Shown: one piece after another, positions 7,571 through 47,534 of the stretch
Layout: the number at the start of each line of letters is the position of its first letter
How positions within the stretch are numbered: the first letter of the stretch is position 1
NCBI GenBank assembly: GCA_947624325.1
Contig: CANQJT010000010.1
Coordinates: 1-48,037, forward strand
Direction: 5' to 3'
From: Candidatus Gastranaerophilales bacterium
GTDB taxonomy: Bacteria; Cyanobacteriota; Vampirovibrionia; Gastranaerophilales; Gastranaerophilaceae
Length of the DNA stretch: 48,037 nt
Notes under the pieces: generated by a model
What the model saw: only the letters and a program-made list of their open reading frames with translations
Told to the model about the DNA's origin: nothing
Databases searched by the model: none
Translations under genes and position numbers: made by a program

Positions 7571-8650
7571 ATGGTCTATAAGGTAGGAGTACAACAAAAT
7601 AGTCAGTTTTCAAATACTGTTTCCTTCGCCAGAAAAAAGGATAAGGAAGGTAAACAGCCTGAAGTATATATAAATGATGCATATTTAATGGTTAAAGAAA
7701 GAGAAGAACATCCACTGTTACTCAATGCAAAAATTCAGGCTACAAGATTAAAAGATGCAGTAACAACTTATCCTAAAAAAGGTTTAAAAGGCAGTAAAAA
7801 TGCGAATTTCTATGAGTTTTTAACAATGGGTACCGTCCCGTATTTAATCGGAAGCGGAATGTTAATGGCTGTGTTTAATTTTGCTTCAAAATATTTTAAT
7901 ACGGAAGCTTGTACAAAATCATTAAAACTCGGTCAAAAAATGGCAATTGGCGTAGTGTTCTACGGTGTTGCCAAGACATTATCCAAAAAATTAATAGAAC
8001 TTCCGGTTAAATGGAAACATGGGATAGATGTAAATCTTCCTTATAAAAAGGAAATAAAAGAAATCCCGGAAGAAGATAATAAAAATAAATTAGTAAAATA
8101 TGAATATCATAAAGCATATGAAAGTGTTGATTTCCCTCGTTGGGATTTACTTTATGATAATAGTAATTTTGGTGAAGAAAGAAATGCATATTATGACAAA
8201 ATAGCCGAAAAAATGCATCTTAAGACCGGCGATTTAACATCTTCGGATCAAAAAGTTAAACCTAAAATAAAAGAAAAATTAATTCAGACTAAATTATTCT
8301 CAACAATTGTATCATATTTATGGGCTGCAACAGGCGTGGGTATTGCAATGCAAGAACCTTTTGAACATATATCATTTGTTCCTCGCAAGTTAAAATTAGA
8401 ATACGGAATTAAAAATCCGTTACAATTTGTTAAGTTATTTGCAGAAAGATTTAAGGAAAGTTGTAAGTCATTTATCAATAATAACAATAAAAGCTGTGCT
8501 TTGGCAGGAAGAATTTTATTGGGAACTGCAATTGGTGTTACTTTATTAGGCAATTTTAAAACACTTTTTGACTTTAATAAAGATAGGGGCTCAAAAAATC
8601 AGGCTGCAATATCATTAATTGATAAAAGTAAAGAAAAGGTAGTATGCTAG
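7571..8650 (+). CDS. Multi-pass membrane protein of unknown function, short paralogue
   Basis: I do not recognise a named family. The 359-residue protein has a disordered N-terminus with NTVSFARKK (residues 15-23), two hydrophobic segments (about 84-105 and 119-137), a conserved-looking PVKWKHGIDV (145-154), a charged region, a third hydrophobic segment (about 241-260) and a fourth near the end (about 310-330). The next gene repeats this layout, with PIKARTGVDV in the same place, so the two are paralogues. It has no signal peptide. The start is supported by GAGG five bases upstream. It is the first gene of a tight cluster with the paralogue, a GH13 enzyme and a small membrane protein. A role in a membrane complex that serves the enzyme is inference only. 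Confidence 0.8.
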   Translation: MVYKVGVQQNSQFSNTVSFARKKDKEGKQPEVYINDAYLMVKEREEHPLLLNAKIQATRLKDAVTTYPKKGLKGSKNANFYEFLTMGTVPYLIGSGMLMAVFNFASKYFNTEACTKSLKLGQKMAIGVVFYGVAKTLSKKLIELPVKWKHGIDVNLPYKKEIKEIPEEDNKNKLVKYEYHKAYESVDFPRWDLLYDNSNFGEERNAYYDKIAEKMHLKTGDLTSSDQKVKPKIKEKLIQTKLFSTIVSYLWAATGVGIAMQEPFEHISFVPRKLKLEYGIKNPLQFVKLFAERFKESCKSFINNNNKSCALAGRILLGTAIGVTLLGNFKTLFDFNKDRGSKNQAAISLIDKSKEKVVC

Positions 8651-8651
8651 T

Positions 8652-11276
8652 ATGGCAAATTTAATAGATGCATATCGTTCACATCAAAATGTAAATAATC
8701 CGTCACCGGTTTATAAACATGCCTATACAGTTAATACCCAAGGAAAGGTTAAGCCTTTGGAAGATAAAGGCAGATTACTTCCTTCAAGAATTTTTGGTTC
8801 TCCCGTAGAATATGTTAAAGATTTGAAAAAAGATATAGTTAATATAGGTCGTGCCGCAAACGGAAAAGCTAATGACCATGAACTCGGAAGAATAAATGAT
8901 GTTGCAATGAAACTCGGTTCACTTGCACTTGCAACATATTTATTTATAAAAAATCCTCTTAAATTAAGTAAAACAATGGAATTTGTAGGTTTCGGAACAT
9001 TCTTCGGAGCAATGGCATTATGGCCTAAACTTGCTATTCAGGCTCCTATTAAGGCAAGAACAGGTGTTGATGTTCATCAAAAATATATTGATTCTCAAGA
9101 CCGTAAGAAAATGTTGTTCCAAGACCCTCAATATGATTTAACTGATTTATATTCAAGAGAAGATTTAGACAAAATGGGTAAAAAACTCAAAGTAGCTAAA
9201 AATCTTCCGGATCGTGACAGATTTATAAAACAAAGAGCAAAGAAAACAGCTGTTCAAGCTAATACTTTGTGGATGCTGACAGCAGGATTTGCAAGTCCGG
9301 TTATGAGTGCATTGGCTTGTAATGCTCTTGAAACACCGATTGATGAAGCATTTGAAAGATCTGCACTTAAGAAAACAGAACAGGCTCTTAAATCAGGTAA
9401 AGTATCAGGATTTATAAAGAATTTGAGTTCTTCAAATACCGATGTTTTACAAAAATTCCTTGAACAAAATGCAGGTAAAGAAGTAACGGAAGAAATGATT
9501 GACAAAATTGTTTATGAATTACTTCCTGATGTTAATTCTGCCGATTTGACAATGTCAATTAAAAAATCAATCCAAGATTTAGTCAGAAGGTCAAATAATA
9601 ATTCATCTGCAATGAGTTTTGAATTTGTATCAAATGCATTAAAGGATATTCTTCCCGAAAACTTTATGGCTTCATTACAATTAAAAGAAAAAGAAGCGCT
9701 TAATGATGCAATAACTAAAGGTTCTGTTTCGGATATAGCAAATATAATAGGTAACCTCCTTGAAAAATCGGGACAATTACCGGTAAGACAAAAAGCTAAA
9801 AAACTTCAGCAGATAACAGGAAAATTAGCATCGGAAACTCAGGCTGCTTCTCCAGTAACTTTGGATAAAATTTCAAGTCAAATAACTAAATTGGGTGATT
9901 CATTAAAAGAATTTGTTTCGGGTAGAAAATTAGTTGACGACTTTATTAACGCAAGAGTAGGCGATAAATCCGGAACATATATAGCAAATCATTGGAACAG
10001 AGTTTGCAAAAAACTATTTAAGAAATTAAAATTCAGCCAAAAAGATTTATTAGAACTGCAAAAAGGCAATATGGACATTTTTATTGAAAAACTTACTGCT
10101 CTTTCAAAAGCAGAAGGTAAAGATGGTGTAGAGTCTTTATTAAATGAACTGTTGACCTTAATGAATGACTACGAAGAAAAAGCAGGAAATAAATTAGTTG
10201 AGGGTGTAGAAAATAATTTCAGAAGAATTTGTGAGAATACAGCCGCAAGTTTAAGTGAGGGTAATTATAAATCTTTATCCGACAAAATATTCAAAAAATA
10301 CACTGAAGCAAGTATTGAAGAAGTTGCATCGAATGTTGAAGAAATCTGCACAAAAATCGGTATGCATAAAGATGAAATAGATGCATTATCAAAGTCATTT
10401 AAAAGTAAATTGAAGGCTGAAGATATAAAAGGTGCAATAGAACTTCTTAAAAACAATTCCACTTTAATGGATGAAAAATTTAAAGACCAAATTGATTACA
10501 ATAAAATTCAAGAATTATACAATAAATTAATGGCTGTTAAAAGAGATACTGTTGAAAACACCGTAAATCAAATGGCTGCAGAAAGAGCATTAGGTGCTAA
10601 GTCTTCATTATACAGATTAATTCAATCAATAGATATATTAAATCCAAATAATAAATCTTTACTGGAAGACAGAATAAAAACATCATATAAAAAGATAAAA
10701 AATACTGATGCTGATGATAAAGTTGTAGCAAGCTTATATGAAACAATTAAAAAAGTTCTTTTAGAAGCAACACCAACTGACTATGTTGAAAAATTCATGA
10801 CCTCTAAAATAAATATGGATGCGGACGAATATCGTATTATATCCGATGTTTTATTTGATAAAGCTGATGATGTAATTCTCTTAACCAAACCCAGCGGTGG
10901 AAAAGAAGCACTTAAAAGCTTTAATGCATATATAAAAGATTTCAGATTAAAAGTTTGGAACTGGGTAAATGACATGACTCCCGATTTAAAAGATAGGGTA
11001 TCAAAAGAATTAACTAAAGATATGAAAGATGTTGCAACTAAAGATGTACCAAAAACATATGGTGCAAATGCTGTTGAAAGAAGTAATTTTATCGGTAAAT
11101 CGGTAAAAGATTACATGCAGGAAAGTGCATCAAAAATTTATAATTCAAAAAAATGGCTTAAAATATTCGGTACTTCGATGGCAGTACTTGTCGGAGTAAC
11201 ACTTGTAGCAGGTCTCTTCTTCGGAAGAAAAAGTAAGATAGAAAAAGAATTGGAAGAAAACAAACAAAATGGCTAA
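8652..11276 (+). CDS. Membrane protein of unknown function, long paralogue with ~600-residue helical insert
   Basis: The 874-residue protein has the same scaffold as the preceding gene product: two hydrophobic segments (about 85-100 and 108-126), PIKARTGVDV (132-141), a third segment (about 203-223) and a last one at the C-terminus (about 838-858, GTSMAVLVGVTLVAGLFFG), followed by a charged tail. Between segments three and four lies a region of about 600 residues rich in K, E, L, N and S and predicted mostly helical. This region is absent from the short paralogue. The N-terminus carries SRIFGSP (45-51). The ATG is one base after the upstream stop. The downstream gene overlaps its end by 8 bp, so the three are translated together. 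No enzymatic motif was seen; a structural or scaffold role would be a guess. Confidence 0.8.
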   Translation: MANLIDAYRSHQNVNNPSPVYKHAYTVNTQGKVKPLEDKGRLLPSRIFGSPVEYVKDLKKDIVNIGRAANGKANDHELGRINDVAMKLGSLALATYLFIKNPLKLSKTMEFVGFGTFFGAMALWPKLAIQAPIKARTGVDVHQKYIDSQDRKKMLFQDPQYDLTDLYSREDLDKMGKKLKVAKNLPDRDRFIKQRAKKTAVQANTLWMLTAGFASPVMSALACNALETPIDEAFERSALKKTEQALKSGKVSGFIKNLSSSNTDVLQKFLEQNAGKEVTEEMIDKIVYELLPDVNSADLTMSIKKSIQDLVRRSNNNSSAMSFEFVSNALKDILPENFMASLQLKEKEALNDAITKGSVSDIANIIGNLLEKSGQLPVRQKAKKLQQITGKLASETQAASPVTLDKISSQITKLGDSLKEFVSGRKLVDDFINARVGDKSGTYIANHWNRVCKKLFKKLKFSQKDLLELQKGNMDIFIEKLTALSKAEGKDGVESLLNELLTLMNDYEEKAGNKLVEGVENNFRRICENTAASLSEGNYKSLSDKIFKKYTEASIEEVASNVEEICTKIGMHKDEIDALSKSFKSKLKAEDIKGAIELLKNNSTLMDEKFKDQIDYNKIQELYNKLMAVKRDTVENTVNQMAAERALGAKSSLYRLIQSIDILNPNNKSLLEDRIKTSYKKIKNTDADDKVVASLYETIKKVLLEATPTDYVEKFMTSKINMDADEYRIISDVLFDKADDVILLTKPSGGKEALKSFNAYIKDFRLKVWNWVNDMTPDLKDRVSKELTKDMKDVATKDVPKTYGANAVERSNFIGKSVKDYMQESASKIYNSKKWLKIFGTSMAVLVGVTLVAGLFFGRKSKIEKELEENKQNG

Positions 11277-14735: not shown

Positions 14736-15830
14736 TTAATATTCCATTTGTCCGCTTCCTGTATATACACCTCTCATAAGATGTAAAAGTTCATTCGGAT
14801 TATCTGAATTATCGAGGGCAACTTCTTTTGAAATTATTCCGTTTTTATAGAAATTATATAAAGACATGTTAAAGGTAATCATTTCATTATAAGAACCGTT
14901 TTGAACAAGTTTATATATTTCTTCAAGTTTGTCTTTAACTATGAAATCTTTAATTGTCGGAGTTGAAATTAATAATTCAACAGCTGGGATTCTTCCTTTT
15001 CCTTCAGCTTTAGGCAAAAGTTTTTGTGAAACGGAGCCTCTGAATACTTCAGCGAATTGGTTTCTTACTGCTTCTCTTTCGGATGGAGGGAAGAAACTTA
15101 ATATACGGTTTATAGTTTGAATAGCATTATATGTATGCAGTGTTGCGAAAACCAAATGTCCTGTTTCTGCTGCGTGCAGGGCGCTTTGAACGGTTTCCAT
15201 ATCTCTTATTTCACCTATTAATATAACATCAGGGTCTTGTCTTAGAGCAAATTTAAGTCCATCCAGATAGCTTAAAGTATCAACACCTATTTGTCTTTGT
15301 GTAAATATTGATTTTTTACTTTTATAAACATATTCAATCGGGTCTTCAATTGTTACTATGTGCTTTTTTTGAGTTTGATTTATGTCTTCCAGAATAGAAG
15401 CAATTGTAGTAGATTTTCCTGAACCTGCTACTCCTGTTATAATTACAATTCCGTTATCAAATTTAGATAATTTTACTATACTCGGAGGCAAATTAAGTTC
15501 TTCCGTAGTCGGTATATCGTATGATACAAGTCTTACAGTCATAGCATGGTAACCGAAAGACATTGCAAGGTTTACTCTGAAACGAGAAACTCCTTCAATT
15601 TCATACGGGAAATCGCTGTCAAACGAGTTAAATATTTTATCACGCATAGATAAAGGAGCCATATGATCTATTGCTTTAATCATGTCATCTTCCGTAACGG
15701 GAGGTAATTTTGTTTTCATAATTTTCCCGTCAATACGAAAAGAGGGGACTTCTCCTACAATATAATGCAGGTCTGATGCATTAATTTCGGCTGCTTTTTT
15801 AAGCAGTGAATCTATTGAATATTCTTCCAT
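14736..15830 (-). CDS. pilT: Type IV pilus retraction ATPase PilT
   Basis: This hexameric motor depolymerises type IV pili (twitching, DNA uptake). At 364 residues it shows the full PilT motif set: Walker A GVAGSGKSTT (K139), Asp box TIEDPIEYVY, Walker B DPDVILIGEIRDMET and His box ATLHTYNA. A C-terminal helical part contains FRGSVSQKLLP. A GGAG ribosome site lies about eight bases before the ATG. It leads a minus-strand operon with recO and deoC and is divergent from smc. The intact motifs contrast with the degenerate PilB-like protein at 42775-44163. A pilin-like gene lies at 33910. Confidence 0.95.
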   Translation of the reverse strand: MEEYSIDSLLKKAAEINASDLHYIVGEVPSFRIDGKIMKTKLPPVTEDDMIKAIDHMAPLSMRDKIFNSFDSDFPYEIEGVSRFRVNLAMSFGYHAMTVRLVSYDIPTTEELNLPPSIVKLSKFDNGIVIITGVAGSGKSTTIASILEDINQTQKKHIVTIEDPIEYVYKSKKSIFTQRQIGVDTLSYLDGLKFALRQDPDVILIGEIRDMETVQSALHAAETGHLVFATLHTYNAIQTINRILSFFPPSEREAVRNQFAEVFRGSVSQKLLPKAEGKGRIPAVELLISTPTIKDFIVKDKLEEIYKLVQNGSYNEMITFNMSLYNFYKNGIISKEVALDNSDNPNELLHLMRGVYTGSGQMEY

Positions 15831-28540: not shown

Positions 28541-30136
28541 ATGACGAATGAATTAGCTGAAAAAGTATATAATTTGCAAAAAAATGTGCTGGAACTGCAC
28601 AATCTTTTTGATTTAAATATGGCTGCAAATCAGTCAAGGACTATTGAGGAGTTATTATCTAAAGTTTCGTTTTTAGTAAAATCATCATTATCATTAAAAA
28701 ATGTAAGATTTCTTATTAATAACGGGGGAACTTTTCAAACTAAAAATATAAGCAGTGAAAGCGATTTAGAGTTCGAATTTAATGCAGATAATGCACCTTT
28801 TTTACAAACCATTACAGATAAGCTTATAAAAGTTGTAAATAATGACGGAAGTTATATATATAAAGCTTTTTGGCATACGTATAAATTAAGCGAACTGGAA
28901 ACAGAGTATATAAAAGTTTTTTATAATGAAGGCAGAGCTTATTGCCTTTGTTCTTTAAGTAAAAAAGATAACGGTGAAAGTTTAAATGATGATGATTTTA
29001 AATATCTTGATCAGGTATTCAGCTGTATTGACCCGATTTTACTTAAATTTATCAGAGATAAAGAACAGGAAGGCAAGATACAGGAATTAAATAAAACAAT
29101 ACATAACCTGTCAATACTTTATAATATTTCACAGGCAGTTAACTTTATTGACGATTTAAAGCGATTAATAAGTATCATTTTGGATAAAGCAATAGAAACC
29201 GTAAATGCCGAAAAAGGTTCTTTGATGCTTTATGATGCATCAGATAATACATTACAGGTAAAGGTTGTATTTGGGTTAAAAGATAAAAAGCATGAAGATG
29301 ATATAAACAACGGGATTGTTGAATGTACTAAATTAAAACCGGATAGTGGGATTGCCGGTAAAGTATTTACGGAAAAGAAATCAATTATAACCAATTTAGG
29401 GGGAAATGATCCCAGATTTAACCAACTATCCGCAGACAGTAATGTATCATCATTAATATGCGTTCCTTTAATTGCAAAAGGGGAATGTATCGGTATTATT
29501 AATATTACCAATAAAAAGAACGGTAAATTATTTAATAAAAAAGATTTAGAGTTTGTTGAAGCATTGGCAAATCAGGCTGCTATTGCTGTTGATAATGCTC
29601 AGTTATATGAACTTGCTACAAAAGACGGCTTAACAAAATTATATATCCACAGACATTTCTATTTCTTATTGGAATCGGAAATTAAAAGAGTTCAAAGATA
29701 TCACCATGTATTATCATTAATAATGATGGATATTGATAACTTTAAGAATGTAAATGATACGTACGGTCACTTGGTTGGTGATATGGTATTAAAAGAAATT
29801 GCAGCGACAATTCAAAAAACAATAAGGCACGTTGATATTCCTGCAAGATACGGCGGTGAAGAATTTACAATTATTCTTCCCGAAACCGCAGCTTTAAATG
29901 CGGTAACAATAGCTGAACGTTTAAGACAAAGAATAAGCGAAATTGCTGTTAAAGTTGATGATGAGACAATAATAAGACCCACCGTAAGTATGGGTATAGC
30001 TGAATTTCCTAATGCTGCTGATAATATCAAAGATTTAATTGATTGGGCTGATAAAGCTTTGTATGTTTCAAAAGAAAACGGTAAAAATTGTATACATTTA
30101 TATTTTGATGAAAAATTTTCAAGATATAATCCTTAA
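28541..30136 (+). CDS. GAF-domain diguanylate cyclase
   Basis: This enzyme makes cyclic di-GMP from two GTP. The 531-residue protein has an N-terminal helical and possibly GAF-like region (1-180), a GAF domain (about 195-350, ETVNAEKGSLMLYD ... ICVPLIAKGECIGIINITNK) and a GGDEF domain (about 360-525). The active site is RYGGEEF (GGEEF at 438-442), so it should be active. The inhibitory I-site RHVD lies five residues before it, so product feedback is likely. There is no TM segment, so it is cytosolic. What the GAF domain senses is not evident. It has no Shine-Dalgarno; a -10 box sits just before the ATG. Confidence 0.9.
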   Translation: MTNELAEKVYNLQKNVLELHNLFDLNMAANQSRTIEELLSKVSFLVKSSLSLKNVRFLINNGGTFQTKNISSESDLEFEFNADNAPFLQTITDKLIKVVNNDGSYIYKAFWHTYKLSELETEYIKVFYNEGRAYCLCSLSKKDNGESLNDDDFKYLDQVFSCIDPILLKFIRDKEQEGKIQELNKTIHNLSILYNISQAVNFIDDLKRLISIILDKAIETVNAEKGSLMLYDASDNTLQVKVVFGLKDKKHEDDINNGIVECTKLKPDSGIAGKVFTEKKSIITNLGGNDPRFNQLSADSNVSSLICVPLIAKGECIGIINITNKKNGKLFNKKDLEFVEALANQAAIAVDNAQLYELATKDGLTKLYIHRHFYFLLESEIKRVQRYHHVLSLIMMDIDNFKNVNDTYGHLVGDMVLKEIAATIQKTIRHVDIPARYGGEEFTIILPETAALNAVTIAERLRQRISEIAVKVDDETIIRPTVSMGIAEFPNAADNIKDLIDWADKALYVSKENGKNCIHLYFDEKFSRYNP

Positions 30137-40344: not shown

Positions 40345-42429
40345 ATGAATAATATTGTATTAATATCCGATAACAATAATACTCTTAATGAAATTGGCAG
40401 TATATTAAATAATAATATCTATGAAATTATTAATATTTCATCTGAAGACGATGCCTTAAAATCTGTGCATGACGGAATAGCAAGTATCTATATCTTTGAT
40501 TTAAACTCCGAAAATATAGATATAATCCCTTTGTTGAGAACTTTAAAACTTACAATGCAGACAAAAGATATGCGCTCAATAGTTATTCTTCGTGAAAATG
40601 AAACGGATTTTTCGGCGCTTAAGTATGCTAATTCCTATGTTCAAAGACCTTTGAATGAAGAATTATTTAAAGCCACAGTTAATTCAAATATGCAGTTGTG
40701 CGAAACCTTTAGAGTCCTTTCAAAAAATAACAACGACTTAGCTAAAAGCTTATATCAGCTTAATGTTTTATACAATACCAGTACCCAGCTTGCAGGCTCA
40801 TTGGATAAAACAAAATTAATAGAGATTATGTCCGACGGTTTGGATAAAAGCCTTTCACTTTCTCTTTGCTATGCTTTAATTTTAACTGATGTAAATGATA
40901 TTAAATTAATTATAAAATCAGTACTTCCGATATCCCAAAGGCTTGAAAATGCAATAAAATTAAGGGCTTTACTTAATTATAAAAATCTTTTTTCAATAAA
41001 TCCTTCCATAGATGATATAAAAATTATCAAAGAGGTTAAAGACCAGTACGGGGAGTACGATTTAAACATATTCGGGTTCGATAATCTTTTTGCCCCCATT
41101 AATATTAAAAACAAATTTTACGGAATAATAGAAGTTTTTAGAGAAACCGATTTTGCACAGGAAGATACAAAATGCTTTACTACTCTTGTTAAGCAGGTAT
41201 CATTACCGCTTGAAAGTGCTATTCTTTATGAAGAAATAAAAGATACTAATATAAAACTTGAAAAACTTGAAAGATTAAAATCAGAGTTTATATCTATTGT
41301 GTCTCACGAGTTAAGGACACCCTTAACCTCGATAAACAGTGCACTTGAAATTATCTTAAAAGGCAGTGCCGGCGATATTAATGAAACAATGGAAAAATTC
41401 TTAAATCTTGCCAAAAGAAACGTGGAAAGACTTTCTGCTATTATATATGACTTACTTGATTTATCCAAGATTGAAGCAGGTAAAATGGAATTCAGGTTTG
41501 AAAAAACAAATATTAATCTGCCTGTAGAACTTGTTAAAAATACACTTGAAAGCTTGGCAAAAGAGCAAAATATAACAATAAAAATGAATTTGGCGCAGGA
41601 CCTTGACCTTGTTTATATAGATACTCAAAGAATGGAGCAGGTTTTGACTAATCTTGTTTCTAATGCAATTAAATTTACAAGGGAAAACGGAACTATAGAA
41701 ATTACAAGCTCCAGAATAAAATCAAGCGAGATAAAAAATAATCCGTTTTTTGAATCTCTGCCCGACCACCTGAGCGAGGAATATATCAAAATTGCGGTAA
41801 AAGACAACGGCATAGGCATTGCACCCGAAAATTGGAGTAAAGTTTTTGAACAGTTTAAGCAGATAGAAAACTCTCTTAGCCGTAAAGTCGGCGGTTCGGG
41901 GCTAGGGCTTCCAATTGCAAAAAGGCTTATGGATGCACATAAAGGATTTATCTGGCTTGAAAGCGAACTGAATAAAGGCTCTACATTCTATCTTGCAATC
42001 CCTGTTATGAATGAAAAAGAAATTTTTATTCATTCGCTTGAACAAGATATTCAAAAAGCAAAACAAGAACACATGAATATTTCATTAATAGCCCTTTGCG
42101 AGATTAAACATGATGAAAAATCTTTAATTAATGATGTTCTTAATGAAAATATAATCAGAAAAACTGCACAATTTAAAGAACTTACGACTTATAAAGCGGA
42201 TAGAAAATACTATTATTCGTATGCAGTTGATATAGATTCTTTTGTTTATGACTTTGAAGTAAGAAAATTGGATACTTTTATCAAAACTTTAAATAAAGAA
42301 AATGAAGGTTATGATATAATGTATTCATCGGCACTGTATCCGCAAGACGGAAATAATTTAAAAAGTATAATTGATAAACTTAATCAATTTACTAAAGGGG
42401 ATGAAGATGAAGAAGATATTAATCGTTGA
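40345..42429 (+). CDS. Hybrid-type histidine kinase: degenerate receiver, GAF, HisKA, HATPase, GGDEF-like tail
   Basis: A 694-residue soluble sensor kinase without TM segments. Residues 1-120 look like a receiver domain (D52 in IYIFDLNS, but QRP where the conserved lysine should be), so phosphorylation there is doubtful. A GAF-like domain covers about 140-295. The HisKA H-box is SHELRTPLTS (H321), and the ATPase has NLVSNAIKF, DNGIGIAPENW and GGSGLGLPIAKRL, all intact. The tail (about 560-690) resembles a decayed GGDEF domain in its end motif (SSALYPQDGNNLKSIIDKL) but has no GGDEF signature. The response-regulator gene overlaps its end by 23 bp, so the pair is coupled. Confidence 0.85.
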   Translation: MNNIVLISDNNNTLNEIGSILNNNIYEIINISSEDDALKSVHDGIASIYIFDLNSENIDIIPLLRTLKLTMQTKDMRSIVILRENETDFSALKYANSYVQRPLNEELFKATVNSNMQLCETFRVLSKNNNDLAKSLYQLNVLYNTSTQLAGSLDKTKLIEIMSDGLDKSLSLSLCYALILTDVNDIKLIIKSVLPISQRLENAIKLRALLNYKNLFSINPSIDDIKIIKEVKDQYGEYDLNIFGFDNLFAPINIKNKFYGIIEVFRETDFAQEDTKCFTTLVKQVSLPLESAILYEEIKDTNIKLEKLERLKSEFISIVSHELRTPLTSINSALEIILKGSAGDINETMEKFLNLAKRNVERLSAIIYDLLDLSKIEAGKMEFRFEKTNINLPVELVKNTLESLAKEQNITIKMNLAQDLDLVYIDTQRMEQVLTNLVSNAIKFTRENGTIEITSSRIKSSEIKNNPFFESLPDHLSEEYIKIAVKDNGIGIAPENWSKVFEQFKQIENSLSRKVGGSGLGLPIAKRLMDAHKGFIWLESELNKGSTFYLAIPVMNEKEIFIHSLEQDIQKAKQEHMNISLIALCEIKHDEKSLINDVLNENIIRKTAQFKELTTYKADRKYYYSYAVDIDSFVYDFEVRKLDTFIKTLNKENEGYDIMYSSALYPQDGNNLKSIIDKLNQFTKGDEDEEDINR

Positions 42430-42769
42430 TGATGAGCCTGATATAATTGAAATTCTTCAATTTGTGCTTGAGGCGCAGGGATATGAATGTATAACCGCCA
42501 CTGACGGCGAAGAAGGTTTAAATCTTGCAAGAGAGGCAAACCCCGATTTGATTATATTAGATGTTATGATGCCGAAAATAAACGGGTTTAAGATAAGCAG
42601 ACTGTTAAAATATGACAATAAATATAAAGATATCCCGATATTAATGATAACTGCAAGGTCGCAGGAAGAAGATAAACAAATAGGCGAAGAAACAGGCGCT
42701 GATGAATATATTACCAAACCTTTCAACGTTGATTTTGTTGTTGAAAAAGTGAAAAGTTATTTAGGGTAA
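42407..42769 (+). CDS. Single-domain response regulator
   Basis: The 120-residue receiver has no output domain (CheY/PilG type). It shows DD at 8-9 (ILIVDDEPD), the phosphoacceptor D52 (IILDVMMPK), the switch threonine in MITA and the lysine in YITKPF, so it is fully functional by motif. The ATG at 42407 is chosen because AAAGGGG lies six bases upstream; further in-frame ATGs at 42401 and 42371 are inside the kinase gene and less likely. It is the natural partner of the kinase. With no DNA-binding domain its output is presumably protein-protein, perhaps to the next gene product, which starts five bases on. Confidence 0.93.
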   Translation: MKKILIVDDEPDIIEILQFVLEAQGYECITATDGEEGLNLAREANPDLIILDVMMPKINGFKISRLLKYDNKYKDIPILMITARSQEEDKQIGEETGADEYITKPFNVDFVVEKVKSYLG

Positions 42770-42774
42770 TCTTA

Positions 42775-44163
42775 ATGGAACTCGTAACAAATAAAACTCT
42801 TGAAAAATTAAAGTATGATTTGGTTCGTGACGGCTATATAAGTTATGATGATATTGAAAAAGCCGAAGAACTTGCTTCTTCTCAAAATGTTAATATCGGT
42901 CAAATACTTATAAAATCAGGCTTGATAACGGAAGAAAAACTTTTAAAATTCTTAGAAAGCAAACTGCATATCCCTTATGTTGATTTAAAAGATTATACAT
43001 TAGATACAAAATGCCTGTCATATATAAGCTTTAATGATGCCAGAAAGTATAAAATTATTCCCCTTTTTAAAATAGAAAATGTTTTAACTGTTGCAATGGC
43101 TGATCCTTTAGATTTATTTGCCATTGATAAAATAGTAGAACAAACGGGATGTGATATAGAACCTGTTGTATCTGCTGAAAGTCTTGTTTTGAAAAAGATT
43201 GAAGAATATTATGAAAGCGGAAGCTCTGTCGGGCAAATTAAAATAGAAGATAATGAAACCAAATTCGATTGGCAGGAAGAACTCCATAACGATGTGCTTT
43301 CCGATGAACACATACAAATTTTAATTCGTTCAATATTAAAACAGGCAATTTTAAATAATGTTCATGAAATGTTTTTTGAACATGTTCCGAGCGGATTAAA
43401 TGTTAATTTCAGAAAAGATGCTCAAATTATAAACACAGGGCAGATTCCATCCGTTCTGGTGGTACCGTTTATATCAAAATTAAAAACACTTTCCGCATTG
43501 GATGCAAATATTTGTGAACTTCCCCAGCTTGGTAAACTTATTTTTAAAGTAGATGATATTGTTTTAACAGCAAGTATTTCTGCATTTCCGACAATTAACG
43601 GCGAGAGAATTTCACTTAAAATATACAAACCGCCTAAAAAATTAAATGAATTAAATCTGTCTGATTCTCAAATAAACTCAATAAAAAATGAGCTGAAAAC
43701 TCCCGGCATTATTCTTGTGTGCGGTTCTTCTTTGTCGGGAAAAACTCATATAATTTATTCAATTCTTTCGGAAATATCAAACGGTTCTAAAAATATCATG
43801 ACCATTGAAGCAATATCAAAATACAACCTTGAAGGTGTTAATCAGTGTGAATTGAATGAAAATATAGGATTTAATATAGATAAAGCCATGCGTTTTATTG
43901 AATTTCAATCACCCGATATAATTTATTTTGAAAACATTACAAGCAAAGAAGGACTTGATTATTTCAGTTCTCTTGTGTTCAAAAATAAAATATTAATAAC
44001 TGAATTTCTTGCAGACAATATGGCAGATTTAATAAAGAAGCTCTCTTATATAGGTTTTGAAATGTTTAAACCGCTGATATCGTGTATTGTTTTTGTCCAT
44101 AATCCCCAAAATATTGAAGTGTTCGATAAATCAGATCTTAAACGGTTTACGGGTATAACATAG
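42775..44163 (+). CDS. Degenerate PilB/GspE-like protein with MshEN-type N-terminus
   Basis: The 462-residue protein has the layout of a type IV pilus or type II secretion extension ATPase. Residues 1-145 are a MshEN/T2SSE_N domain with two motif-like units (LVRDGYISYDDIEKAEELAS and IGQILIKSGLITEEKLLKFL), and an ATPase-like domain follows. Walker A survives (CGSSLSGKTH), but the usual GEIRD becomes IYFENITSKE, the His box becomes ITEFLADN, the Arg-finger LRQ is gone, and the zinc-binding cysteines are missing. It is therefore probably not an active motor. Some MshEN domains bind c-di-GMP, but the RLG arginine is absent here. It is in an operon with a kinase and a CheY-like protein. A regulatory role in piliation is inference. 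Confidence 0.8.
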   Translation: MELVTNKTLEKLKYDLVRDGYISYDDIEKAEELASSQNVNIGQILIKSGLITEEKLLKFLESKLHIPYVDLKDYTLDTKCLSYISFNDARKYKIIPLFKIENVLTVAMADPLDLFAIDKIVEQTGCDIEPVVSAESLVLKKIEEYYESGSSVGQIKIEDNETKFDWQEELHNDVLSDEHIQILIRSILKQAILNNVHEMFFEHVPSGLNVNFRKDAQIINTGQIPSVLVVPFISKLKTLSALDANICELPQLGKLIFKVDDIVLTASISAFPTINGERISLKIYKPPKKLNELNLSDSQINSIKNELKTPGIILVCGSSLSGKTHIIYSILSEISNGSKNIMTIEAISKYNLEGVNQCELNENIGFNIDKAMRFIEFQSPDIIYFENITSKEGLDYFSSLVFKNKILITEFLADNMADLIKKLSYIGFEMFKPLISCIVFVHNPQNIEVFDKSDLKRFTGIT

Positions 44164-44252: not shown

Positions 44253-47200
44253 ATGAAAATAACACCGATATTCCCTTCTAAATCGGTACAAAATAAGGGT
44301 ATTAACAGTAATTTTATAAAAGCATGCAAAAATGAAATAAATATAACAAATCCGAATAAAATGTTTCAGGTATATTTTGGCAAAGACCTTGTAAATAAAT
44401 CCAAACCTGATTTTCAAAGTACGGTAGATAAGAATTATTATCATTTAAAAAAAGGTTTTTATCCTGATGAATTTCAAATAAATGCAGGCAAAAGAATATA
44501 CGAAGGGAAAGATGTTCTTGCTGAAGCCCCGACAGGGATAGGGAAAACGGCACTGGCATATTATGCTGCATCAAAAAATATGGATGAGGGAAAGAAAACC
44601 TTTTATACAACTCCTTTAAAAGCTTTGAGTAACCAAAAATTAAAAGAATTCAGAGAAATTTTCGGAGAAGAAAATGTCGGAATTCTTACGGGTGACAGAA
44701 GGGAAAACCCTGATGCTCCGATTATTGTCATGACAACTGAGGTATATCGTAATATAGCGATGTCCGATAATTTTAAGCATGATAATCCGATAATGAAAGA
44801 CCTTGGAACGGTAGTATTAGATGAATTTCACTATTTGGGTGATGAATCAAGAGGCCCTGTTTGGGAAGAATCCGTTATGTTTACCCCAAAAGATACTCAA
44901 ATTCTTGCATTAAGTGCTACTATCGGCAATGCTCCCAAACTTGAAGAATGGATTTCTAATATCAGAGGAAATAATGCAAGCTTAGTATCCGTAGCACCTA
45001 AGGATAGACCTGTTCCTTTAGAATTTAATACTTTAGAAACGGAATCATATAAAAAATCAGGTAAAAAATCTTATAAATATATGGGAATGAATGAAGCTGA
45101 AGAAATGAAAGAAATACTTTCGGCAAAGTCCTCATCTCACTCAACCCCAAGATATAAAGATTATCTTATGGCATTAGCTAAACTTAAGCAGAATGACCAA
45201 TTGCCTGCAATATTCTTTGTATTCAGTAAAAATAATTCAAGAGGAATTCTTGATTTCTTCGGTAAAGAAGGCTCTGATTTAAATACAAAGGATGAAAAAG
45301 ACGAAATTAAGAAAATTTTAAATGAATATAAATCAAAATATTACCTAGGTAAAGATTTCAACGAAGAGGCACTCTTAAAAGGTTATGCAATACATAATGC
45401 AGGTATAATGCCAAGACAAAAAGAACTTATAGAAGAACTTTTCCAAAAGAAACTTGTAAAAGTAGTAATATCAACAGAAACACTTTCAGCAGGGATTAAC
45501 ATGCCGGCCAGAACTGTCGTAATATCAAGTCCTTATAAACCTGCCGAAATTTCTTCAGAAAGAAGGCAAAGTAATATTGCGGATAATTATACTGAAATTA
45601 ATGACGATGAAGATAATGATGAAAATGATATAATAACAGGCGGTTCAAAAATTATAAGCAGACCTTTAACGGCAAATGAATTCATTCAAATGTCAGGCCG
45701 TGCAGGCAGAAGAGGTATTGATAAAACAGGTTATGTATATACAATGCCAGTTGACTACGAAACAGATAAACTGTTTACATATTTAAAATCTCAACCTTCA
45801 AACTCCATAACAAGTAAATATGACCCGACATATTCATTTTTGTGTGAATATTATTCTAATTTAAGTGATAAAAAACATCTGGATGAAATATTTAAAAAAT
45901 CTCTGTTTATGCAGGAAGATCAAAAAACTGATTTGTTTTATCCCAGATTAACAGATGGCGCAGAAGATATATATCTTGATACGGGTTTCTTAAAATATGA
46001 TAAAAACGGCAAAGTAATACCGACGGATAAAACTAAACTTTTATATATATCAAGTTTCGCAGATGCTCTCTCAAATGTATTATCAGAATATAAATACCTT
46101 GAAAGTACGGAAGATTTCGGATATAAAGCAACAGTAAAAGGAAAAATGGCTGCAAAAGTTGCAGGATATGACCCTATTCCTTTGGTTGAAGTATTGTCTA
46201 ATCCCCAATCATTTAAAAACATAACCCCTGAAGCATTAGTAATGCTCGCAGGAACAATCGCAGTTCAAGACAACGATAAATACAGTGTATTTAAAGTCGA
46301 CGATGATAAATTAAGCGAGGACTCCGTTAAATATGCAGAAGAGTTGAGAGATGAAATTTCACTGGAGCTTAAAAGAAAACTTTCAGTGATGTTGAAAGAT
46401 TTAGGCAAAACCTTTGATGATTTTGACTCTTTCTCCGATATGCTTAAATATGCTAAAAATCTTGAAACTACAGATAAAAATTTAAGTGAATTAAAGTCAC
46501 AAGTTGATGAAATTGAAGAAATACGGGCAAAATTATATAAAATAGATTCAAATACAAAATACACACTGACGCAACTTTATTCTGCATTTGAGGCAGGAGA
46601 GATAATTCCTTCAAAAGCTCTAAACTATTGGAAATCGGAAATTCAAAATTATAAAAATAAAAATATGATATTCAGCTTTGATGATTACCTTGTTAAATTA
46701 AAAAGAAATCTGGACAGAATAGATTTAACATCAAAAGCAAAAAAAGCACAGGCAAGAAATAAAAAAGAAGCAGAAGAAATAAAAAATGAAATTAAAACAG
46801 TAAAATTAATGAAATATGTTGAAGAACATCTGGATAGTGCAATTAATTCAAATAAAGACTTTAAAAGAGCAAACTCAATGGCAAATGTTAAAGCCGATCA
46901 TCAGGAGGTAATGAGTTTATATACCGCAAACAGCTTAAAGGATAAATTAATATCAACAATAAAAGCATTAATTGAAATTGAAGAAAATCCTGATGGCGAT
47001 ATATCCATAGATGATAATGCAAAAAATAATATCGGCAATATATTCAGATATATGTTTTTAATGTCGAAAATGCTGTATTCGGAAGAATCAATATGCGGAA
47101 TACAAGGCGAGCTTCCGATGTATAGTGAAAATGCCGGTAAATTGCTCTATACATGGGCATCATTAAATAAATTAAATCCTGACAGCCGTTTGAATTGGGA

Positions 47201-47534
47201 TAAAGTATTAAAATGCTCAAAGAAAATGGAAACTGATATGGAAGAGGAATATGAGGCGCAAAGCCCTAAAGATGATATATCAATAGGTGTATTAGTCGCA
47301 TCATCAGACGGAAATATACCTAAGAAAAAGAAAAAAGGCACTCAAGGTTTATATGATGAGGGAACAATATTCAGAATGGTAATGCAGACCGGAGATTTGC
47401 TCTCCCAAATGTCTGATATTGCGAAAATCGGATATGAGAATGCAGTAAGTCTTGCAGAACAGAACAATTATAAAGATTTAATAGCTAAAATCAAGACTGC
47501 AAAAGAGTTAATAATAAAAGACCCTCTTATATAA
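44253..47534 (+). CDS. Ski2-like DExH-box RNA helicase
   Basis: The 1093-residue protein has an N-terminal extension with QVYFGKDL (about 45-52), Walker A EAPTGIGKTALAYYAA, motif II DEFHYLGDESRGPVWEES, motif III LALSATIGN and motif VI QMSGRAGRRGIDKTGYVY. The DExHY...RGxVWEE and SGRAGRRG strings mark the Ski2/Mtr4/HelY group rather than RecQ or UvrA-type enzymes. A long helical C-terminal half follows. Such helicases act on RNA in degradation or rRNA processing; the cellular role in this lineage is unknown. GAAGGAG precedes the ATG. An 89-bp gap separates it from the PilB-like gene, and it is followed by the ribosomal operon promoter. Confidence 0.92.
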   Translation: MKITPIFPSKSVQNKGINSNFIKACKNEINITNPNKMFQVYFGKDLVNKSKPDFQSTVDKNYYHLKKGFYPDEFQINAGKRIYEGKDVLAEAPTGIGKTALAYYAASKNMDEGKKTFYTTPLKALSNQKLKEFREIFGEENVGILTGDRRENPDAPIIVMTTEVYRNIAMSDNFKHDNPIMKDLGTVVLDEFHYLGDESRGPVWEESVMFTPKDTQILALSATIGNAPKLEEWISNIRGNNASLVSVAPKDRPVPLEFNTLETESYKKSGKKSYKYMGMNEAEEMKEILSAKSSSHSTPRYKDYLMALAKLKQNDQLPAIFFVFSKNNSRGILDFFGKEGSDLNTKDEKDEIKKILNEYKSKYYLGKDFNEEALLKGYAIHNAGIMPRQKELIEELFQKKLVKVVISTETLSAGINMPARTVVISSPYKPAEISSERRQSNIADNYTEINDDEDNDENDIITGGSKIISRPLTANEFIQMSGRAGRRGIDKTGYVYTMPVDYETDKLFTYLKSQPSNSITSKYDPTYSFLCEYYSNLSDKKHLDEIFKKSLFMQEDQKTDLFYPRLTDGAEDIYLDTGFLKYDKNGKVIPTDKTKLLYISSFADALSNVLSEYKYLESTEDFGYKATVKGKMAAKVAGYDPIPLVEVLSNPQSFKNITPEALVMLAGTIAVQDNDKYSVFKVDDDKLSEDSVKYAEELRDEISLELKRKLSVMLKDLGKTFDDFDSFSDMLKYAKNLETTDKNLSELKSQVDEIEEIRAKLYKIDSNTKYTLTQLYSAFEAGEIIPSKALNYWKSEIQNYKNKNMIFSFDDYLVKLKRNLDRIDLTSKAKKAQARNKKEAEEIKNEIKTVKLMKYVEEHLDSAINSNKDFKRANSMANVKADHQEVMSLYTANSLKDKLISTIKALIEIEENPDGDISIDDNAKNNIGNIFRYMFLMSKMLYSEESICGIQGELPMYSENAGKLLYTWASLNKLNPDSRLNWDKVLKCSKKMETDMEEEYEAQSPKDDISIGVLVASSDGNIPKKKKKGTQGLYDEGTIFRMVMQTGDLLSQMSDIAKIGYENAVSLAEQNNYKDLIAKIKTAKELIIKDPLI

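Follow-up and report, generated by a model that had tools for sequence, protein, structure and literature searches.

Background

The PilB/GspE extension ATPases are PilT-like members of the ASCE superfamily. Gastranaerophilaceae, the bacteria studied here, are non-photosynthetic relatives of Cyanobacteria. Some PilB proteins have been connected to signalling. An ATPase-deficient PilB of Myxococcus xanthus supports exopolysaccharide production without pili (PMC5544727), and a 2024 review (PMC11656802) names M. xanthus as the only species with reports of direct PilB signalling beyond pilus assembly. In Synechocystis, the regulator PixG interacts with PilB1 (PMC12288463). These studies are precedents for each half of the system proposed below, namely PilB signalling without hydrolysis (PMC5544727, PMC11656802) and regulators acting on PilB (PMC12288463).

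We analysed a Gastranaerophilaceae locus that encodes a 462-aa PilB-like protein, here called pseudo-PilB, next to a kinase and a regulator. Pseudo-PilB shares with PilB/GspE proteins the predicted N1D-N2D-ATPase order and fold, as well as Walker A. However, it lacks the catalytic Glu, the Asp-box Glu, the His box, one Arg finger, the zinc Cys residues and the C-terminal tail; it is also encoded outside a pilus locus and falls below the family cut-offs. The closest parallel in M. xanthus (PMC5544727) is that a PilB deficient in ATPase activity is able to signal in the absence of pili, but there one active PilB performs both jobs, whereas here a separate, apparently dead paralogue has its own two-component system. 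With the PixG/PATAN regulators that act on Synechocystis PilB1 (PMC12288463), the locus would share a phosphorylated regulator acting via a PilB protein. In that system the target is an active motor and the output is phototaxis, whereas the regulator of this locus consists of a receiver alone and its pseudo-ATPase partner persists even without pili. The MshEN receptors of cyclic di-GMP, including the regulator Bd2402 (PMC5013675), resemble pseudo-PilB in their N-terminal fold and in linking MshEN to two-component regulators. In pseudo-PilB, by contrast, key contact residues for c-di-GMP are replaced, and the MshEN-like domain sits on a PilB backbone and not within the response regulator. The combination of a dead PilB paralogue with a dedicated two-component system was not found in the open-licence literature that we searched.

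A kinase, a regulator and pseudo-PilB in one operon

The window, i.e., the whole stretch of DNA analysed (48,037 nucleotides, contig C10), comes from a 1.98-Mb genome that is 98.9% complete and whose nearest named relatives are Candidatus Gastranaerophilales. The operon runs from the histidine kinase through the CheY-like regulator to pseudo-PilB (Table 1). The best start of the regulator is the ATG at 42407, with a GGGG Shine-Dalgarno sequence six bases upstream; an alternative ATG lies at 42401. With the start at 42407, the kinase and regulator genes overlap by 23 bp. The ATG of pseudo-PilB (42775) comes five bases after the end of the regulator (42769), and an AGGG sits within the last regulator codons. 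The coordinates, overlap and spacing in a preliminary description of the three genes were all right on re-reading. Promoter and terminator scans gave results near the shuffled expectation and play no part in the interpretation.

Table 1 Features of the operon and the PilT-family gene in the window
Feature	Position	Strand	Evidence or remark
Sensor histidine kinase, 694 aa	40345..42429	+	Pfam HisKA + HATPase_c
CheY-like single-domain response regulator, 120 aa	42407..42769	+	Pfam Response_reg 1e-29
Pseudo-PilB, 462 aa	42775..44163	+	Pfam T2SSE 104 bits, MshEN 68 bits
Walker A codons G317-T324	43723..43746	+	GSSLSGKT, kept
Asp-box region E345-K349	43807..43821	+	E345 kept; Glu (E357) replaced by K349
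E386-N387	43930..43935	+	Walker-B Gly replaced by Glu; catalytic Glu replaced by Asn
His-box region K405-L412	43987..44010	+	H413 replaced by K405, H420 by L412
PilT/PilU-family retraction ATPase	14736..15830	-	TIGR01420 408 bits, over cut-off; DPIE, GEIRD, TLHT intact

The kinase contains HisKA (residues 312-379, with H321) and HATPase_c (426-554) domains according to Pfam, and its H, N and G boxes do not vary among 36 orthologues. Its N-terminus (residues ~1-110; window 40345-40680) is degenerate and receiver-like, with a Response_reg score of 18 bits that is below the cut-off. In the structural model (mean pLDDT 80.5), the middle of the kinase appears helical or GAF-like, and helices and strands alternate at 557-679. 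In its predicted order of helices and strands, the C-terminus (residues ~557-680; window 42013-42387) resembles a GGDEF domain without the GGDEF signature, a weak assignment: Pfam matches GGDEF there in one orthologue only, at 14.1 bits, below the cut-off. The regulator is a bare receiver that carries the residues needed for phosphorylation and is linked by gene position to pseudo-PilB. Its D8, D9, T82 and K104 are invariant in 116 orthologues, and the phospho-acceptor Asp is found in the sequence LDVMMPK. Judged by their residues, the kinase and the regulator look competent.

Fold and catalytic residues of pseudo-PilB

Pseudo-PilB comprises an N1D/MshEN-like domain (residues 6-146), an N2D (~176-290) and a core ATPase (~300-446), and has neither a zinc subdomain nor a C-terminal tail. 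It is similar in sequence to Geobacter PilB (E 1e-57), and scores far under the PilB and GspE equivalog cut-offs. In its AlphaFold model (pLDDT 83.8), residues 175-460 match PilB structures 5zfr/5tsh (Z 23.1) and residues 7-146 match the N-domain of MshE 5htl (Z 19.1, rmsd 2.0). The predicted fold is thus PilB-like, with N1D, N2D and ATPase core.

Functional residues established for PilB (PMC5424180) are the catalytic E395, Arg fingers R271 and R286, the Mg-coordinating Asp-box E357, and His-box H413 and H420. We mapped these residues via a profile alignment, and counted them in 117 orthologues from the host family and 20 from other families. Walker A is intact in the window protein, as the preliminary description had noted, and its Lys is present in 117/117 host-family and 16/20 other-family orthologues (133/137 overall). 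The exceptions are locus L149 and family f6 (L160, L162, L163), which have lost Walker A and still carry K349, E386 and an NKTxxKLKxDLVR N-terminus. Compared with the f6 orthologues, the N-terminal domain is 54% identical and the ATPase domain 23%; conservation in pseudo-PilB is highest in the N-terminal domain.

A comparison of the changed residues among orthologues had been proposed previously. Two changes are universal: the Asp-box Glu is replaced by Lys (K349), and the Walker-B Gly by Glu (E386), in 137 of 137 orthologues from seven families of the order. Because K349 and E386 are in every one of these proteins, the motif changes, as read from the alignment, are not chance. The Asp-box change is a further alteration beyond those in the preliminary description, which had reported Walker B as lost. 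The catalytic Glu is indeed gone, but the site reads FEN, with the new invariant E386 one residue earlier. To judge from these residues, the region has been rewired and not just lost.

The catalytic E395 corresponds to N387 in the window protein. Among the 137 orthologues, this position is Gly in 109 and Glu in 14, with the Gly found in 109/117 host-family proteins and Glu in 13/20 from other families. Since so many of the latter retain Glu, the catalytic Glu was probably lost later than the other residues. Orthologues that retain the catalytic motifs, which had been named as evidence against a pseudo-motor, were not found, although the 13 do have Glu at the catalytic position. In these 13 proteins, the Asp box, His box, one Arg finger and zinc Cys are still changed.

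Both Arg fingers had also been described as lost. This is correct for R271, which became S267 (Ser in 115/117 host-family orthologues), but R286 underwent a conservative swap to K282 (Lys in 116/117). The reported loss of the His box holds, with both His residues replaced, as does that of the tetra-Cys zinc motif: neither the window protein nor any of the 117 host-family orthologues has a CxxC. Six other-family orthologues have a CxxC at 124-269, ahead of the zinc position. The PilT of Table 1 had served as a comparator with the full set of motifs. Its ATPase motifs are intact, but it is the wrong comparator for the zinc Cys, because PilT proteins lack them. The right comparator is the genome's own PilB (720 aa), encoded on another contig (L112:7738-9900) between secretin and PilC genes, which has DPIE, GEIRD, STLHT and two CxxC. 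Taken together, the replaced residues suggest that pseudo-PilB has lost ATPase activity.

Occurrence and linkage to the regulator

High-scoring matches to pseudo-PilB occur in nearly all host-family genomes and in six other sampled families of the order, and nearly all of them are free of stop codons. In samples of genomes from the class and phylum, we found no high-scoring match outside the order; the best scores there reach ~110 bits, about what true PilB proteins score. One host-family genome (G029 of family f1, genus g30; 99% complete) has PilB and lacks pseudo-PilB, whereas both are present in its congener G063.

In each of the 108 host-family loci for which upstream sequence exists, the gene immediately before pseudo-PilB on the same strand is that of the regulator, at a median gap of 5 nt. 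For the other families, a receiver-sized ORF lies upstream in 13 of 20 loci, and an adjacent regulator is absent in 7, one of which is at a contig end. The changes fixed in orthologues and the regulator linked in 108/108 host-family loci therefore support the idea of a pseudo-motor that is conserved and associated with a two-component system.

Pseudo-PilB in genera without pilus genes

A search with true PilB yielded no PilB or PilT match in the genera g35 and g41 (8 + 8 genomes), but pseudo-PilB is retained in 8/8 and 7/8 of them, respectively (15/16). T2SSF/PilC is absent in eight g35/g41 genomes tested and was found in 5/6 comparison genomes; secretin is likewise absent in eight tested and was found in 6/6. 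No other T2SSE ATPase exceeded the cut-off in nine g35/g41 genomes tested. PilM_2 (PF11104) had no match in 14 genomes, piliated ones included, and so is uninformative on a PilM partner. The genomes are mostly metagenome-assembled drafts, so assembly gaps might in principle account for an absent pilus locus, but the absence recurs in 16 genomes with completeness up to 99%. Pseudo-PilB thus does not consistently co-occur with the type IV pilus genes (PilB, PilC, secretin). In our tree, g35 and g41 are sister genera, so the pilus loss is probably a single event.

The g35/g41 operon is intact in the loci read, apart from G034, in which the kinase is on the opposite strand, beyond pseudo-PilB. The dN/dS of pseudo-PilB is 0.034 and 0.024 in the two genera versus 0.028-0.039 elsewhere (overall 0.02-0.05), figures that are rough, as dS is saturated in many pairs. 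In the members measured, pseudo-PilB is under strong purifying selection, as strong as elsewhere (dN/dS ~0.03).

These genera bear on the function that the preliminary description had put forward, i.e., that pseudo-PilB competes with the true pilus ATPase or regulates it. Pseudo-PilB, switched by the regulator, might dock on PilC or the stator, or join PilB hexamers, and thereby lower or redirect pilus assembly. Its predicted fold is the same as that of PilB, including the N1D, through which PilB contacts partners (PMC11656802). Moreover, most genomes with pseudo-PilB have a second, PilB-like match, and cyanobacterial regulators interact with PilB1 (PMC12288463). However, if a protein stays intact after the pilus machine has been lost, controlling that machine cannot be its sole purpose, and pilus control as the general function is not supported, given the 15 genomes that keep pseudo-PilB with no PilB/PilT match, whose tested members also lack PilC and secretin. 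The strong selection in measured members of these genera, and the observation that pseudo-PilB is never beside pilus genes in the loci examined, also argue against it. We consider pilus control rather unlikely, although a pilus role is possible in the piliated majority, this genome included.

Proposed role in signalling

We see roughly even chances for what we take to be the most likely role, in which pseudo-PilB, as a lineage-specific PilB paralogue with a dead catalytic site, is the effector dedicated to the neighbouring kinase-regulator pair and relays to a non-pilus target. An effector of a two-component system is the simplest account, because the regulator is the constant partner. The kinase would phosphorylate the CheY-like regulator, which would then bind pseudo-PilB; the likeliest contact site is the N-terminal domain, which is highly conserved. 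Binding would alter the conformation or assembly of pseudo-PilB and have it relay the signal to a different cellular target outside the pilus. Nucleotide at the intact Walker A may tune the protein in most species; going by the motif, nucleotide binding is dispensable, since one family (f6) lost Walker A. Adjacency of the regulator and pseudo-PilB genes is an association, as distinct from contact or direction; it suggests that the two proteins touch, with signalling presumably running from regulator to pseudo-PilB. Where pili exist, pseudo-PilB would presumably act independently of them as well.

Given that some members of this order of gut bacteria keep the dead motor after losing pili, it has probably taken on a separate function as a component of signalling. 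We would put slightly less than even confidence in a broader history, in which the gene of a pilus motor ATPase underwent duplication ahead of the order's radiation, and the copy was catalytically disabled and adopted as the dedicated output of a two-component system, its fold becoming a pilus-independent, phospho-controlled signalling hub. In M. xanthus, a single protein fills both the motor and the signalling role, and these are difficult to disentangle. In the present case, evolution seems to have split them: the dead paralogue has a kinase and a regulator of its own, and there are natural lineages without detected pilus genes. This would offer a clean system for asking what the PilB fold can signal. 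It would also add a two-component output of an unusual kind, one that neither binds DNA nor acts as an enzyme.

Other possible functions

Another candidate function is that of a nucleotide sensor or slow ATPase, in which E386 replaces the Walker-B acid, the Asp-box Glu is now K349, and ATP-Mg is still bound and read out. The common Walker A Lys, the paired swaps in all orthologues (E357 to K349 and Gly to E386) and the Glu at the catalytic position in other families speak for such a function. However, K349 and E386 are equally invariant in proteins without Walker A, a pattern more in keeping with a structural salt bridge than with a metal site, and pseudo-PilB has lost the His box and one Arg finger. 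We regard this function as improbable.

Alternatively, the MshEN-like N-terminus could bind a dinucleotide, such that pseudo-PilB links c-di-GMP to the two-component pathway. The structure matched by the N-domain (Z 19.1) is that of MshE with bound c-di-GMP, a diguanylate cyclase is encoded in the window (28541-30136), and imperfect motifs can still bind (PMC5013675). But R9, G11, L29, Q32, R38 and Q61 correspond to K11, K13, E31, A34, N40 and K63, respectively, with K11, K13 and N40 invariant in 109 host-family orthologues, and the NCBIfam motif model scores 32.1 against a cut-off of 38. The two RLGxx..LxxxLxxQ motifs (PMC5013675) are largely missing, as both Arg and both Gln are replaced and the first Gly is Lys. 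We therefore set this function aside as very improbable. That pseudo-PilB is a functionless, decaying relic of a PilB duplication, which its lost catalytic residues and C-terminal parts might suggest, is contradicted by the dN/dS values, the nearly universal lack of stop codons and the residues invariant across the order, and is next to inconceivable.

Neighbouring genes

The operon is flanked by housekeeping-looking genes, with an Obg-type GTPase (named from its sequence) upstream on the opposite strand and a DEAD/DSHCT helicase (Pfam) downstream. We dropped downstream neighbours as a clue to function, since they vary between families: the gene 3′ of pseudo-PilB encodes a phosphoribosyltransferase in f7, a V/A-type ATPase subunit in several f3 loci and the helicase in the window's relatives. 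The f3 loci are L150, L152, L153, L159 and L161, in which the V/A-type ATP synthase subunit-like gene (~476 aa) is directly 3′; Pfam was run on L150, L153 and L159 only for this assignment. The helicase of the window (44253-47534; 1093 aa) has a DEAD match and a partial DSHCT match. Its identity is 92% in the closest relative and only ~40% in many others, in which the kinase, regulator and pseudo-PilB are 70-90% identical.

Just 3′ of the true pilBC genes (L112:11958-17999, contig C11 of G000) are a DUF262/GmrSD-like gene and a Mu-type transposase with its ATPase, names that come from reading the sequences and not from a family search. Elsewhere in the window (7571-11276), two long neighbouring ORFs of 359 and 874 aa, without Pfam match over the cut-off, are followed by a divergent alpha-amylase-like gene.
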